Of a stretch of DNA of 16,881 nucleotides, positions 1 through 6,521 are shown in pieces. The position numbers and the translations under genes were made by a program. Each line of letters starts with the position of its first letter. Position 1 is the first letter of the stretch. The DNA is from Chloroflexota bacterium. Its GTDB lineage: Bacteria; Chloroflexota; Anaerolineae; UBA7937; JACPPX01. The stretch covers positions 1 to 16,881 of the forward strand of contig JACPWV010000127.1 in assembly GCA_016196905.1 (NCBI GenBank), written 5' to 3'. Under the pieces are notes generated by a model, which saw only the letters and a program-made list of their open reading frames with translations, made no database searches and was not told the DNA's origin.

Positions 1-204
1 CAGGACTTGACCCCGGAGCACGGTTACCCCCTGCGGCTGGTGGTCCCCCAGCGCTACGCCTGGAAGAGTGCCAAATGGGTGAGAGGGATCGAGTTCATGA
101 AATTCAACCGCCCCGGCTTCTGGGAGCAGTACGGCTACCACATGGACGCCGACCCCTGGGCTGAGGAGCGCTTCGGCACGCCCGACCAGACCAAGTATCG
201 ATAG
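1..204 (+). CDS. Sulfite oxidase-like molybdopterin oxidoreductase, C-terminal end (5' partial)
   Basis: The reading frame is open from base 1 to the TAG stop and gives about 67 residues, so most of the gene lies left of the window. The stretch with [33 protein letters not shown] and DPWAEERF is the recognisable C-terminal signature of the bacterial/archaeal sulfite-oxidase-like family (Moco fold, short form of about 200 residues without the dimerisation domain). Family members bind Mo-molybdopterin; their substrate is usually unknown. The Moco cysteine and the N-terminus are not visible here. A second, longer member of the superfamily lies on the opposite strand at 2081-3112. A strong hairpin follows the stop by about 55 bases. 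Confidence 0.85.
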
Positions 205-259
205 TGAAACAGCGTCTGACCGAGGACGGGATCGCAAAATCAGTTGATGTGATGATAAG

Positions 260-296
260 AAAATCCGGGCTGTCTTCGAGCATAGCCTGGATTTTT
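260..296. terminator. Bidirectional intrinsic terminator between convergent genes
   Basis: AAAATCC (260-266) pairs with GGATTTT (289-295), GGCT (268-271) pairs with AGCC (284-287), and a G-T wobble lies between the two blocks. The loop is 12 bases. The stem ends in T-rich sequence on + and, because it begins with an A run, also on -. It lies between the + strand Mo-enzyme gene ending at 204 and the - strand selD ending at 316, so it can serve both. Confidence 0.8.
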
Positions 297-315
297 ATCT
301 ATAGCGAGAACGAGA

Positions 316-1401
316 TTACCTCTTAGCTAGTCCAGCGGTCGTGTACCCCTCCACCACCTGGATCCCACGCCCCTCGATCACCTCCCCGATCACCCAGGGA
401 CGCCGCCCCTCGCGCGACTCGAAGAGCGAGAGGAGCCGATGGAGGCGATCGGGCGTCACCGCTATAAACAGGCCTCCCGAAGTCTCGGGACAGCACAGTA
501 GGTTCAGCCACTCTTTGGGCAGATCGGCAGGCAGCGCCATTCCCTCGCCTTGGGCTAATAAATATTTCCGGTTGCGCCTCAGGCCGCCCGGGATGTAGCC
601 GCCCCGCGCGTAGTCAAGGGCGCCGGGCAAAATGGGGATCGCTTCCAACTTCAAACGCAGGCCCACTCCGCTGCGCTCGGCCACCTCCCAGGCGTGCCCC
701 AACAGCCCGAAGCCGGTGATGTCGGTGCCCGCACGAATGCCCAATTCGCGCATAATCGCTGCACCGATTCGATTGAGCCTGAGCATGCTCTCCACCGCCG
801 CGGCGACGTGCTCCTTTTCGGCTTTCTGCTCCTTGAGCGCGGTGGTGATCACCCCGCTGCCCAGTGCTTTGGTAAGTATAAGAATGTCGCCCGGCCGCGC
901 GGCGGCTTTGGTTACCACCTGGTCGGGACGGATCGTGCCCGTGACGGCCAGGCCATATTTGGGCTCGGCATCGTTGATGGTGTGCCCCCCGGCGATGACG
1001 CCCCCCGCCTCCGCCACCTTGTCCCCGCCGCCGCGGAAGATCTCGAAGAGGATCTCGCGTGGCAGGTCCTCGGGGAAACCGGCGATGTTGAGCGCGAAAA
1101 GGACCTCCCCGCCCATGGCATAGACGTCGCTCATGGCGTTAGCCGCCGCCACCGCCCCGAAGATATACGGGTCATCCACGATGGGCGGGAAGAAATCCAC
1201 CGTCTGCACGATGGCCACGTCGGGAGCGATGCGATAGACCGCCGCGTCGTCGCTGGTCTGCAGCCCGACCAGGAGATCAGGATGAACCTGAACGCGCAGG
1301 TGGCTCAGTACTTGTTTCAGGTCGCCCGGACCCATTTTGCTGGCTCAACCGGCGCAGGAGGCCAGCGCGGTGAGCCGGATCTCTTCGCGCGTCAGCATCA
1401 T
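316..1401 (-). CDS. selD: Selenide, water dikinase with in-frame TGA read as selenocysteine
   Basis: SelD makes selenophosphate from selenide and ATP, the selenium donor for Sec-tRNA and selenouridine. The protein is 361 residues when started at the ATG at 1401 (a second ATG follows at 1398), behind the strong ribosome site AGGAAGGAGGTGAGG. Codon 19 is TGA (1347-1345). It sits in C16-A-G-U19-A-S-K22-x-G-P25, which aligns with E. coli G-C17-G-C-K20-x-x-P23, so TGA is at the catalytic residue and most likely encodes Sec. Further family motifs are TSDDAAVY (about 49-56), ANAMSDVYAMGG (about 87-98), GGHTI (138-142) and TDITGFGLLGH (226-236). A start at the ATG at 1335 would remove the catalytic residue and has no comparable ribosome site. 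The gene follows the pentaheme cytochrome gene by 20 bases and is likely last in that operon. Assignment to SelD is firm; Sec decoding is inferred from frame, alignment and a hairpin. Confidence 0.95.
1318..1334 (-). promoter_or_regulatory. Candidate bacterial SECIS hairpin in selD
   Basis: On the minus strand the bases after the TGA (1347-1345) form a six-pair stem: UGGGUC (1334-1329) with GACCUG (1323-1318), including two G-U wobbles. The five-base loop is CGGGC. The loop lies 17-21 bases downstream of UGA, about the spacing known for the E. coli fdhF SECIS, and it has G residues near its start as that element requires. SelB binding is inferred, not shown. Confidence 0.5.
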
Positions 1402-1421
1402 CCTCACCTCCTTCCTAGCCC

Positions 1422-2018
1422 CTAGCGCAGTTGTAAGGGGCCGCCCATCTCCTGGTGGCAGCGCACACACTCAGGGAAGAATACATCCCGCGTGCCGAAA
1501 CTGATGGTGGGATCGCCCAGGGGATGGGCCAGGTGACAATCCAGACAGCGAAAGGTCTGCATCGAGTTGGGGATTTCATTGTGAAAATGGTTTTCAAACC
1601 CGGGCTGGTAATAGACGTCCTGATGGCATTTGCTGCAAGCCTGGTCGGGCAGGGGGATGCTCATCATCGCTGGCTGGCGATGGACACCCACCAGGAATTT
1701 TAACGCATCCCAGGCCGACTTGGCCAACACCTGGGCCCGCCCGGCTAACCCCTCCCCGCCGTGGCAGTCGATGCACTTGACCGCCTCTTCGTGGCGCAGA
1801 TGGAAGGTGGCCAGATCGGTGGTCGGCTGTTGCGAATCAATTAGGCGTTGATAGTACTCGAACTCCGGCTGCGTGTGGCAGCTGGCGCAGAAGCTATTAT
1901 TCTGTTCCAGGTGGCTCACATATCCGACCCCGCTCAAGCCCAACCCTAGAGCCAACACCCCGCCGCCTAAAAGAATCCAAGCCAGGTTGCTGCGAGCCCA
2001 AGCCAGCCGATCTCTCAA
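1422..2018 (-). CDS. Membrane-anchored pentaheme c-type cytochrome (NapC/NirT-like)
   Basis: The 198-residue protein has one N-terminal membrane segment (about residues 12-34) and five CxxCH haem-binding motifs: CASCH 44-48, CIDCH 82-86, CSKCH 128-132, CLDCH 158-162 and CVRCH 184-188. The single anchor plus multihaem periplasmic domain is the layout of NapC/NirT/NrfH quinol dehydrogenases, which pass electrons from the quinone pool to periplasmic reductases. The haem count is one more than the usual four. The start is a TTG behind GGGAGGG, with no upstream ATG in frame. It lies 62 bases downstream of the molybdopterin oxidoreductase gene, with a hairpin between them, and 20 bases upstream of selD. 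The likely role is as electron partner of the Mo enzyme; direction of flow is not readable from sequence. Confidence 0.88.
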   Translation of the reverse strand: MRDRLAWARSNLAWILLGGGVLALGLGLSGVGYVSHLEQNNSFCASCHTQPEFEYYQRLIDSQQPTTDLATFHLRHEEAVKCIDCHGGEGLAGRAQVLAKSAWDALKFLVGVHRQPAMMSIPLPDQACSKCHQDVYYQPGFENHFHNEIPNSMQTFRCLDCHLAHPLGDPTISFGTRDVFFPECVRCHQEMGGPLQLR

Positions 2019-2037
2019 TAACCCTCCCGAAAGAAGA

Positions 2038-2060
2038 CGGAGTGGTCTTTTACCACTCCG
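2038..2060 (-). terminator. Intercistronic hairpin, possible attenuator
   Basis: CGGAGTGGT (2038-2046) pairs perfectly over nine bases with ACCACTCCG (2052-2060), with a five-base loop. Read on the minus strand it is followed by TCTTCTTTC, a pyrimidine-rich but imperfect U tract. It lies between the stop of the Mo oxidoreductase gene (2081) and the ribosome site of the cytochrome gene. It may terminate part of the transcripts or protect the upstream mRNA end. Confidence 0.55.
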
Positions 2061-2080
2061 CGCCCCGCTCGCCGATCACC

Positions 2081-3112
2081 TCAGCCGACCTGCACCCAGA
2101 CCACGTGCATGTCCGAGGTCCCGTCGGGGAAGGTATTTTGCAAGAGGCCCGAGGCTGGCCGCTCTTGGGTCCGTCCCTGATCGTCAGTAACCCGCGCCCA
2201 GATGGGCTGTCGACCCGCGCCGGCCTCCCAGCCATAGCTCCACTGCACCCAGACATAAGGGGTGGGCCCGCGCACCAATTCCGCTTCACGCCAGGTGCTT
2301 CCCTCATCGAAGGACAACTCGACCTTGGCGATGCCCGAGGCGCCGGCGAAGGCAAGCCCATCCACGACCACCTTCCCCACCGAAAGGTTTTGGCCGAAGC
2401 GAGGATGATCGATGCGCGCGTTGGGCTTGATGGGAGCGGCATCCGACCAGCCGCGCGTTTCCCAATATCCCTTGTAATCGTTGTCGATCACCTCGATGCG
2501 TTGGATGCGCTTGGGCTGCTTCATCCCGTACACCCCGGGGAAGAGCGCGCGCAGCGGGAAGCCGTGCGCCTGAGGCAAGGTTTCATTGTTCATCTTATAC
2601 ACCAACAGGCTGTGGGGATGTAGGGCCCAGTCGAGGGGGATACTGGTGTGGTAGCCGTCGGTGCACTCGAAGCGCACCTCCACCGCGCCCGGCTTCACCC
2701 CCGCCAGGTTGAGGATGTCCGCCAAGCGCACCCCTTCCCACACCGCGTTGCCGATGAGGCTCCCGCCGGCCGGGTTGCTGATGCACTCCAGCGTGCGCAT
2801 CTCAGTCAGGGAAGGCAAAGCCAGGATCTCGTCGTAAGTCAAGGTCAAGGGACGTTCTACCAGACCATCGACACGAAGTTGCCAACTGGAAACATCCACC
2901 GGCCCGGGGGAGGAGTACTCCAAGACGTAGAATTCCTCGTTGGGGGTGATGCGGATGCCGTCGATCACCAGGGAGACCGGCTCGCTGCCAGGTGGGGAGA
3001 CCGTCTCCACGGCGTGCTCCAACTCCTCCTCCCGACCCTGACAGCCGATGAGGATGACCCCTAGGGTCCCCCCACACCATTTTAGAAATTCACGCCGATC
3101 AATCTCCCGCAT
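2081..3112 (-). CDS. Molybdopterin-dependent oxidoreductase, sulfite oxidase superfamily, exported lipoprotein
   Basis: The 343-residue protein starts with a twin-arginine motif, RREFLK (residues 6-11), then a hydrophobic run ending in the lipobox LIGC24, so it is probably exported folded and lipid-anchored. The Moco-binding fold follows: the Mo ligand cysteine is C110 in TLECISNPAGG, and then come WEGVRL, ECTDGYHTSIPL and GFPLRALFPGVYGMKQPKRI (about 184-203). The C-terminal part (about 240-343, with VELSFDEGSTW and WARVTDDQG) is the Mo-co dimerisation domain. This layout matches sulfite dehydrogenase (SoxC/SorA)-like enzymes, but the substrate cannot be named. It is first in the operon with the pentaheme cytochrome and selD. 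The ATG has GAAGAGG six bases upstream and a promoter about 60 bases upstream. Confidence 0.92.
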   Translation of the reverse strand: MREIDRREFLKWCGGTLGVILIGCQGREEELEHAVETVSPPGSEPVSLVIDGIRITPNEEFYVLEYSSPGPVDVSSWQLRVDGLVERPLTLTYDEILALPSLTEMRTLECISNPAGGSLIGNAVWEGVRLADILNLAGVKPGAVEVRFECTDGYHTSIPLDWALHPHSLLVYKMNNETLPQAHGFPLRALFPGVYGMKQPKRIQRIEVIDNDYKGYWETRGWSDAAPIKPNARIDHPRFGQNLSVGKVVVDGLAFAGASGIAKVELSFDEGSTWREAELVRGPTPYVWVQWSYGWEAGAGRQPIWARVTDDQGRTQERPASGLLQNTFPDGTSDMHVVWVQVG

Positions 3113-4861: not shown

Positions 4862-5692
4862 CTAGCTTTGGACGCGATCCAACTGCAAGGCCATCCGGTC
4901 GATCCACCAGCGCACCGAGCTCAGCACCACCACCCAATAGCCCAGATAGCCCAACACCTCCAACAGGGATGGGTTAGCGTTGTAGCCGAAAAGGGCTTTG
5001 AGGACCGACCCCCAGAAGGAGGACTCGTCCAAGAGATGGGCGGTGTTCCAGGCTTCCTCGACCAAGAAAGGCAAGAGCCCCGCCTCCTGGAACTCGTGGA
5101 TCCCATGGGCCAGGAGCCCGGCGGCGAACAGCAATAAAAGCACGCTGGTCACGTCGAAGAAGCGCTGCACCGGAAGGCGCACCGTGGTGGCATAGAGGAG
5201 AGCCCCGATGGTTATGGCGATGGACAAACCCAACAGGCTGCCCCACACCGTCTCCAGCCCGCCCGCTACGAAGGCCGCCGCGGTCAGGAACAACACCGTC
5301 TCCACCCCCTCCCGGAGGACGACCACAAAAGAGAGGCCGGCCAGGGCCCAGTTGTGTCCCTGGCTGACCGCGACCTGAACTTCGCGCTCCAGGGCCACCC
5401 TGATGAAGCGGGCTTGATAACGCATCCAAAAAATCATGTAAGTCAGCACGCCCACCGCCAGCAGCATGGTGGTGCCTTCAAAGATCTCCTCGGCCGGGCC
5501 CTCGAGCTGGGCTCCCGTCCGCTGCAGCCCTATGGCCAAGATCAGGCTGGCCACGACGGCGGCCGCCACGCCGATCCATACGTAGCCTTGGCGATCGAGG
5601 CGGCGGATCTTCCGCAGATAACCGAGCACGATGCCCACCACCAGCGCGGCTTCCAGGCCTTCGCGCAAGGTCAACAAAGCAGCAGCGATCAT
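4862..5692 (-). CDS. FTR1 family iron permease
   Basis: The 276-residue protein is almost entirely hydrophobic, with about seven membrane segments. It holds the two hallmark R-E-G-x-E motifs of the FTR1/EfeU family, REGLE (10-14) and REGVE (127-131), plus EEIFEG (68-73) and HGIHEFQE (196-203). FTR1 permeases take up Fe3+ across the cytoplasmic membrane after oxidation of Fe2+ by a partner. No EfeO, EfeB or multicopper oxidase gene is visible here. The ATG at 5692 places the first REGLE in membrane segment 1, as in the family; a GGGGG run lies just upstream. The gene is divergent from a DtxR/MntR-family regulator and is followed by the MoaD-like gene 15-78 bases downstream, depending on the latter's start. 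Confidence 0.92.
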   Translation of the reverse strand: MIAAALLTLREGLEAALVVGIVLGYLRKIRRLDRQGYVWIGVAAAVVASLILAIGLQRTGAQLEGPAEEIFEGTTMLLAVGVLTYMIFWMRYQARFIRVALEREVQVAVSQGHNWALAGLSFVVVLREGVETVLFLTAAAFVAGGLETVWGSLLGLSIAITIGALLYATTVRLPVQRFFDVTSVLLLLFAAGLLAHGIHEFQEAGLLPFLVEEAWNTAHLLDESSFWGSVLKALFGYNANPSLLEVLGYLGYWVVVLSSVRWWIDRMALQLDRVQS

Positions 5693-5725
5693 CGACCCCC
5701 GAATAATCCCAAGGATGACTCCTAA

Positions 5726-5760
5726 AGCTTACCACAAAGGGCGGGTTTTCGTCAACGAAA
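5726..5760 (-). promoter_or_regulatory. Candidate promoter and palindromic operator upstream of FTR1
   Basis: The palindrome TTTCGTCAACGAAA (5747-5760) has two perfect six-base arms around a CA centre. On the minus strand it contains TTGACG (5755-5750), a five of six match to the -35 box, followed 18 bases later by the extended -10-like TGGTAAGCT. The -10 hexamer is poor, so the promoter call is weak; the palindrome is clear. Placement suggests a repressor site for the permease gene. Confidence 0.45.
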
Positions 5761-5786
5761 TGATAAAAAAACCGATCAGATCGAGT

Positions 5787-5815
5787 TTGACAGGAAATCT
5801 AATCGAAACTATAAT
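5787..5815 (+). promoter_or_regulatory. Consensus sigma-70 promoter of the DtxR/MntR-family gene
   Basis: TTGACA (5787-5792), a 17-base spacer and TATAAT (5810-5815) match the consensus exactly. Transcription would begin at about 5822. This rules out the in-frame ATG at 5814, which overlaps the -10 box, and supports the ATG at 5841. Confidence 0.85.
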
Positions 5816-5818
5816 GGC

Positions 5819-5837
5819 TTTAACGAAAAGAGTTAAA
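5819..5837. promoter_or_regulatory. 19-bp inverted repeat, candidate DtxR/MntR-family operator
   Basis: TTTAACGAAAAGAGTTAAA has perfect six-base arms (TTTAAC and GTTAAA) and a total length of 19 bases, the usual footprint length of DtxR-family boxes. It covers the predicted transcription start directly after the -10 box, a position suited to autorepression. Confidence 0.6.
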
Positions 5838-5840
5838 TTG

Positions 5841-6521
5841 ATGATCGAAAACGCCCTGAACGAGACGGCCGAGGAATATCTCAAGGCTATATACAAGCTG
5901 CAGCACTCTGGCGAAACGGGAAAGGTGAGCCTGACGGCCATCGCCCGGCGGATGGGGGTGTCCGTGCCGGCGGTGATCAGCATGGTCAAGCGCCTGGCGG
6001 CCCTGCGGCTTATACAACGGCTCCCCTACCAGGGAGTGGCCCCCACCCCGGCGGGGGATAAGATCGCTCTGCGCCTGATCCGTCATCACCGCTTAATGGA
6101 GCGCTTCATGGTGGACGCCATGGGCTTCGGCTGGGACCAGGTGGATGAGCAGGCCGATCGGCTGGAGCACGTCATCTCAGAGGCCTTTGCCGACCGGGTG
6201 GAGGTCATGTTGGGCTATCCACGCACCTGTCCCCACGGCGATCCCATCCCCGCCAAAGACGGGTCCCTCCCCGAGTTGCAGCTCATGGCCGTGGCCGACA
6301 TGCATCGCGGCCAGAGTGGCCCCTTCCGGCGCGTGGGCGTGACCGAGCCCGAGGTGCTGAGCTACCTGGGCCAACTGGGCTTCAAGCAGGATGTCCCCGT
6401 GACCTTTTTAGAGAAGGCGCCCTTCCAGGGCCCGGTGCGGCTGCGCGTGGGCGAGAACGAGGTCAGCCTGGGGGCGGAGCTGGCCAGCCAGATCTATGTG
6501 GAGCAATCTGCCTCCGCTTAG
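5841..6521 (+). CDS. DtxR/MntR-family metal-dependent transcriptional regulator
   Basis: The 226-residue protein has the DtxR layout: winged helix (about 1-75, recognition part RRMGVSVPAVISMVKRL), dimerisation/metal domain (about 78-140, with HHRLMER and ADRLEHV) and a C-terminal FeoA/SH3-like domain (about 150-226). Aligned by eye to DtxR, H83, E87, E109 and H110 keep metal ligands. The Met10 position is E12, Cys102 is D106, and His98 is D102; the acidic set is closer to manganese-type MntR than to iron-type DtxR. Start at ATG 5841 follows from the promoter; the ribosome site is weak (AAGAG). In this family, metal-bound protein represses uptake genes, here plausibly the divergent FTR1 permease and itself. 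Metal identity is uncertain. Confidence 0.9.
   Translation: MIENALNETAEEYLKAIYKLQHSGETGKVSLTAIARRMGVSVPAVISMVKRLAALRLIQRLPYQGVAPTPAGDKIALRLIRHHRLMERFMVDAMGFGWDQVDEQADRLEHVISEAFADRVEVMLGYPRTCPHGDPIPAKDGSLPELQLMAVADMHRGQSGPFRRVGVTEPEVLSYLGQLGFKQDVPVTFLEKAPFQGPVRLRVGENEVSLGAELASQIYVEQSASA

Follow-up and report, generated by a model that had tools for sequence, protein, structure and literature searches.

The window, by which we mean the whole stretch of 16,881 nucleotides analysed here, belongs to an Anaerolineae-type Chloroflexota whose genome assembly comprises 1.41 Mb in 227 contigs and is 64.9% complete. It carries selD, the gene for selenophosphate synthetase, with a gene for a multihaem cytochrome c in front of it on the same strand (Table 1). 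Two different MsrP/SorA-like molybdopterin oxidoreductase genes (1-204 and 2081-3112) flank the selD-cytochrome pair. Further along the window, a gene for a DtxR-type iron-dependent repressor with a FeoA domain (5631-6521) lies beside a gene for an FTR1/EfeU iron permease (4862-5692) on the opposite strand.

Table 1. Features of the selD region of the window (nt, position counted from the U of the in-frame UGA)
Feature	Positions	Strand	Basis or remark
MsrP/SorA-like molybdopterin oxidoreductase, C-terminal part, convergent	1..204	+	profile match
selD, selenophosphate synthetase	316..1401	-	TIGR00476, 373.6 bits; PDB chain 3u0o_A, E=5.8e-77
Candidate bacterial SECIS hairpin, weak	1318..1334 (nt 14-30)	-	-5.7 kcal/mol; loop CGGGC at 1324-1328
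Internal ATG, false start of gene callers	1333..1335	-	ORF list and sequence
In-frame UGA, predicted to be read as selenocysteine	1345..1347	-	equivalent of Cys17 of E. coli SelD; TGA there in relatives
Double ATG start, 1401 or 1398	1396..1401	-	read from sequence
Shine-Dalgarno-like AAGGAGGTGA	1404..1413	-	read from sequence
Multihaem cytochrome c, NapC/NrfH-like, below most curated cut-offs	1422..2018	-	20 nt before selD start
Molybdopterin oxidoreductase, sulfite oxidase/SorA-like superfamily	2081..3112	-	profile matches

An earlier, sequence-only reading had traced the selD frame from ATG 1401/1398 through TGA 1347-1345 and past ATG 1335; these coordinates proved exact, AAGGAGGTGA stands in front of the start, and the frame stays open past the TGA to TAA 318-316 (minus strand). 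The product has 361 amino acids from 1401 (360 from 1398) when the TGA is counted as one residue, namely residue 19 in the numbering from 1401. Its match to the selD profile TIGR00476 (cut-off 125 bits) covers positions 1-309 of the 311 of the model and spans residues 9-318, so that it starts ahead of the TGA residue. The alignment with PDB 3u0o, which we take to be Escherichia coli SelD, placed the TGA residue on Cys 17, the catalytic residue to which it had been assigned before, and the following lysine on Lys 20. The context had been given as C-A-G-U-A-S-K-x-G-P and reads C-A-G-U-A-S-K-M-G-P in the window. Selenocysteine (Sec) at this position of SelD had been put forward as known, which agrees with passages of PMC4561486 according to which 19% of the SelD genes of reference prokaryotes have Sec, always at the Cys17 position. 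Open reading frame calling by a mechanical rule returned the 339-amino-acid part from ATG 1335 alone.

In genomes G003, G005 and G007 of the same order (loci L097, L099 and L100), TGA occurs at the same site as in the window. In the 15 codons that precede the TGA, all 15 residues of the window recur in each of these loci, and every comparison gives 8 synonymous changes but not one non-synonymous change, whereas the remainder of selD differs by 110-118 synonymous and 113-119 non-synonymous changes (111 and 119 for L097; Fisher p=0.007 for the contrast with the part before the TGA); as the three loci are closely akin (SelB of these genomes shares 92-94% identity with SelB of G005), they amount to nearer one comparison than three. 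Because the residues are unchanged despite 8 synonymous changes, the stretch before the TGA is, as judged from these codon comparisons, translated and under selection as protein. Conservation upstream of 1335, whose absence had been named as one of two results that would speak against the earlier reading, is thus strong. The residues before the TGA align with SelD proteins of solved structure and are kept in relatives, which on the sequence level means that the upstream frame with its TGA is not due to chance. The convergent MsrP-like gene adjoins selD in these three genomes as well (73-75% identity over 60 amino acids), and this shared neighbour supports vertical descent of the locus.

The constraint on the upstream codons also bears on the possibility that translation starts at ATG 1335 and yields a 339-amino-acid protein, in which case the upstream frame would encode a short leader peptide. 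This start has been chosen for 106 of the 120 public homologues listed (see below), but on reading the sequence no Shine-Dalgarno-like sequence was seen before 1335, and a strong one precedes 1401. The truncated protein would be devoid of the equivalents of Cys17 and Lys20, and the methionine at 1335 is not conserved, being replaced by R, L, I, T, A or V in many relatives. We give this alternative almost no credence.

The frequency of the in-frame TGA was examined in a panel of 150 genomes (that of the window plus 149 relatives). SelD scored above the cut-off in 125 of them, with 130 such matches in total. After three matches with the site uncovered were left out (G060, G090 and one fragment in G009), 124 of the remaining 127 have one in-frame TGA, its position at the Sec site being inferred from the TGA count for rows whose locus was not fetched. 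The three matches free of TGA are in G055 (contig C515, Cys), G111 (Cys) and G037 (codon read as ANN). At the residue level, 131 rows were read, composed of the window and three overlapping sets of 30, 20 and 80 loci (113 distinct regions; the set of 80 holds the best of 407 loci). U occupies the site in 122 of these rows and C in 8, of which 6 are distinct; one row has an ambiguous codon. The nearest relatives named are metagenome-assembled genomes of Chloroflexi and Anaerolineales, with Rokuibacteriota and others further out (among the best 80 of 407 loci). The window adds to the evidence that SelD in this bacterial class mostly takes the Sec form. The exceptions have features of their own. 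G055 has two SelD copies (L104 and L105), a Cys form within a long open frame and a separate Sec form; fusion of an NADH dehydrogenase-like domain to Cys-SelD is recorded in a passage of PMC4561486. In G111 (L103; 97% complete), SelD is the Cys form and selA, selB and tRNA-Sec were not found, which would make it an orphan SelD. In G037 (L102), otherwise a single-contig genome, the Sec codon reads ANN with another N close by.

UGA might be read as sense throughout the genes of this organism, or the TGA might come from an assembly error; nothing was found in favour of either, and we regard both as extremely improbable. UGA is also used as an ordinary stop, ending 5 of the 12 open reading frames examined in the window, and other, independent genomes from the order and from the class have this TGA too.

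The sequence-only reading had further called for selA, selB and tRNA-Sec in the genome, which is supported for the relatives. In the window's genome, the selA gene is intact (contig C210, 83-1417; 582.8 bits, no internal stop). Neither selB (profile TIGR00475 and the SelB protein of G005 as queries) nor tRNA-Sec (RF01852; 150 of the 224 candidates scored) was found in the 64.9%-complete assembly, and both are present in relatives of the same order. The selB searches gave just weak matches below the cut-off, seemingly to other translation GTPases; the nine hits to RF01852 were all below the gathering score, and the eight that were fetched are tRNA-Ser, Leu, Trp, Thr or Gly according to ARAGORN. 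SelB was above the cut-off in all seven same-order genomes of the two other families; hits to tRNA-Sec of at least 70 bits were obtained in G002, G003, G004 and G008, hits of about 50 bits only, which may be tRNA-Ser, in G005 and G007, and none of at least 70 bits in G006. Since same-order relatives have these genes, their absence from the window's assembly is probably an assembly gap. Over the panel, SelB was above the cut-off in 113 of the 121 genomes with TGA-SelD, as compared with 7 of the 25 without SelD above the cut-off (Fisher p=1e-11; G037, G060, G090 and G111, in which the site is ambiguous, uncovered or Cys, are left out).

If the absence were real, the family would have lost Sec decoding and selD would be a relic, its product either a peptide of 18 residues or a truncated, non-functional protein. 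This would agree with the lack of selB and tRNA-Sec matches in the assembly and with the only same-family genome examined, G001 (80% complete), in which none of the four Sec genes (selD, selA, selB and tRNA-Sec) was found; loss of the whole Sec trait in G001, and hence loss in the window's family, is possible. A protein of PF00384 containing TGA was likewise not found in the window's genome (none in two fragments), and none of its five PF00578 matches has an in-frame TGA. Yet two unlinked genes would both be missed in an assembly of this completeness at a rate of about 0.35 x 0.35 = 0.12, and seven further genomes with TGA-SelD are likewise without SelB above the cut-off. The intact selA and the unchanged residues before the TGA also speak against a relic, as does P0001, a 97% identical public homologue that is on five contigs of another source. 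We consider loss of decoding highly improbable. The selenouridine trait (SelD with MnmH/YbbB) was considered as the purpose of SelD and rejected; no match to mnmH/ybbB was obtained in any of the nine genomes searched, the incomplete one of the window included.

For the RNA signal, nucleotides were numbered from the U of the UGA. Most relatives of the class have two possible hairpins after the UGA, a proximal one at about nt 15-28 and a distal one at about nt 30-46. Under a strict criterion, which asked for GU at nt 37-38 and for 5 bp or more of stem counted outward from pair 35:41, the distal hairpin was found in 39 of the 45 distinct Sec sequences from the same class and in 34 of the 61 remaining distinct ones; with the GU loop not required, the count was 91 of 106. 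The G36-C40 pair (loop G-GUN-C) is present in 24 of these 39 and 26 of these 34. The GU-loop hairpin agrees with the bacterial SECIS pattern N1-G-[G/U]-N-N2 at a spacing of 16-37 nt, as given in a passage of PMC13188914. It was not found in the window (1318-1302, minus strand), L097, L099, L100, L023 or L033; since the last two come from other parts of the class, the lineage of the window is not alone in lacking it.

The sole hairpin common to the window, L097, L099 and L100 is the proximal GGGUC-CGGGC-GACCU, whose loop is identical in 4 of 4. Its loop CGGGC, 5-6 bp including G-U, and spacing of 16 nt are within the geometry of the bSECIS consensus in the relevant passages of PMC13188914 (loop of 3-9 nt, upper stem of 4-16 bp, G in the first two loop positions, 16-37 nt from the UGA), but its energy misses the threshold there (-5.7 vs -7.5 kcal/mol or below), and another fold of the region reaches -8.7 kcal/mol. 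When 41 nt were folded with the UGA and the next 10 nt free to pair, the alternative hairpin had a pair probability of about 0.85 and the proximal one 0.01; the proximal hairpin may still be favoured, because a ribosome positioned at the UGA would be expected to open the upstream bases. Among 300 synonymous recodings, 2% folded as stably as the window's sequence in the short proximal stretch, and 90% and 100% were at least as stable in the longer and the distal stretch, respectively, so that recoding speaks for a hairpin in the proximal stretch only. Against dinucleotide shuffles, no unusual local RNA stability was detected in four stretches of the window (z -0.34 to 0.86); nt 10-48 were unremarkable (z 0.61). 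A search of window positions 1-2200 with Rfam gave four matches, all below the gathering score and none convincing.

Across 103 Sec rows, the distal hairpin was more stable than in synonymous recodings (mean z -1.85), and p<=0.05 was reached in 55 of the 103 rows for the distal and 31 for the proximal hairpin; the corresponding values in the Cys rows were 1/6 and 0/6, six rows being too few for a firm contrast. In a column-pair control with 106 distinct Sec rows, 83.3% of cells were paired in the distal hairpin vs 68.5% after shuffling, and 68.1% and 71.7% in the two proximal registers vs 63.6% and 67.7%; none of 500 shuffles reached any of these values, but column shuffles ignore relatedness and so lend weak support to the proximal hairpin. 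A run of identical codons over GPGD in the proximal hairpin was considered as evidence for a hairpin and rejected: it is the only run of at least four among 206 residue-invariant codons, and about two such runs are expected by chance (73 of the 206 codons are identical).

Other UGA sites are found in the same order. Its nine genomes examined gave 40 matches to PF00384, nine with in-frame TGA (in G002, G003, G004, G007 and G008), and the six TGA sites that were read stand in what we take to be a formate dehydrogenase-like context. By eye, all six (G002, G003, G004, two in G007, and G008) have a GGUCU loop at nt 22-26; the minimum-energy fold includes this hairpin in three (L206, L207 and L208) and takes other forms elsewhere. 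G003 and G007 have selD without the GU-loop hairpin, yet their formate dehydrogenase-type genes keep the GGUCU-loop element. As a separate observation, the near-perfect palindrome CTCCTGGAGATCTCCAGGAG spans nt 17-36 in selD of Rokuibacteriota loci such as L126 and L142 and is a third type of SECIS candidate.

The recoding signal in the window's selD is plausible but weak, and this is the only part of the case that is not routine. It points to a lineage with a diverged RNA signal for recoding. A bolder version, which we hold to be rather unlikely, is that in the window's genome and the same-order family f3 selD lost the canonical GU-loop SECIS and has its UGA recoded via the proximal CGGGC-loop hairpin, while the formate dehydrogenase-type genes (G003 and G007) keep the GGUCU-loop element. 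If so, one SelB would read two types of SECIS, or the inefficient decoding of selD would itself have a function, namely selenium-dependent self-limitation.

Taking together the frame, the alignment, the conservation and selA in this genome, and selB and tRNA-Sec in relatives, we conclude that selD of this organism very probably encodes a selenoprotein with Sec inserted at UGA 1347-1345. Ribosomes would start selD at 1401 or 1398, and at the UGA, SelB with Sec-tRNA(Sec) would insert selenocysteine, presumably guided by the RNA hairpin just downstream. The Sec would replace catalytic Cys17 and, with the lysine three residues on, form selenophosphate from selenide and ATP. Selenophosphate would then be used by SelA for Sec-tRNA(Sec), so that the synthesis of full-length SelD may depend on its own product in a feedback loop.

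The consequence lies mainly in annotation. Public proteins were searched with the 339-amino-acid query, which has no part before the TGA, under length limits that would have let full-length proteins in; 7968 of the 7998 proteins scored were at E <= 1e-60, and the best 120 were listed. The motif before the TGA is in 0 of these 120. According to the alignment, 106 start at the equivalent of Met 1335 and 13 later; the remaining one, P0116, begins 8 residues ahead of that Met with a stretch that does not resemble a SelD N-terminus. P0001, the closest among the listed matches, has 337 amino acids and starts at the Met equivalent. The expectation that gene callers would drop the active-site residue was therefore borne out, as 119 of the 120 listed proteins begin at or after the Met following the TGA: the nearest public SelD sequences are cut just after the catalytic residue. 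Structure prediction, cloning and pathway calls based on such truncated sequences would go astray.

Passages of PMC1794560 name FdhA and SelD as the most widespread bacterial selenoproteins, state that Sec-decoding organisms without FdhA have Sec-SelD, and give three selenoproteins for Chloroflexi; PMC5736913 concerns formate dehydrogenase. No description of SelD in Anaerolineae was found in the titles and abstracts listed from the open-licence literature on selenoproteins of Chloroflexi or Anaerolinea.

Sec-containing SelD is a long-known selenoprotein family, to which the window's selD adds a member. Compared with the Sec-containing SelD/SPS2 family, it likewise has Sec at the Cys17 position, a lysine three residues on and a full-length match to the model; no difference in the protein was seen in the window, and most of the relatives examined have a stronger candidate SECIS. 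The SelD proteins of class relatives that have the GU-loop hairpin share with it the gene and the position of the UGA and often the context CAGUA(S/A)K. The closest solved structure by sequence, 3u0o, has Cys where the window's SelD has Sec. PDB 2yye/2zod, which we take to be SelD of Aquifex aeolicus with Sec as the natural residue at the site, gives an alignment of nearly full length with the common context (U/C)A(S/A)K(M/V)GPGDL, although at 230 bits only, and Aquifex presumably belongs to another phylum than the organism of the window.
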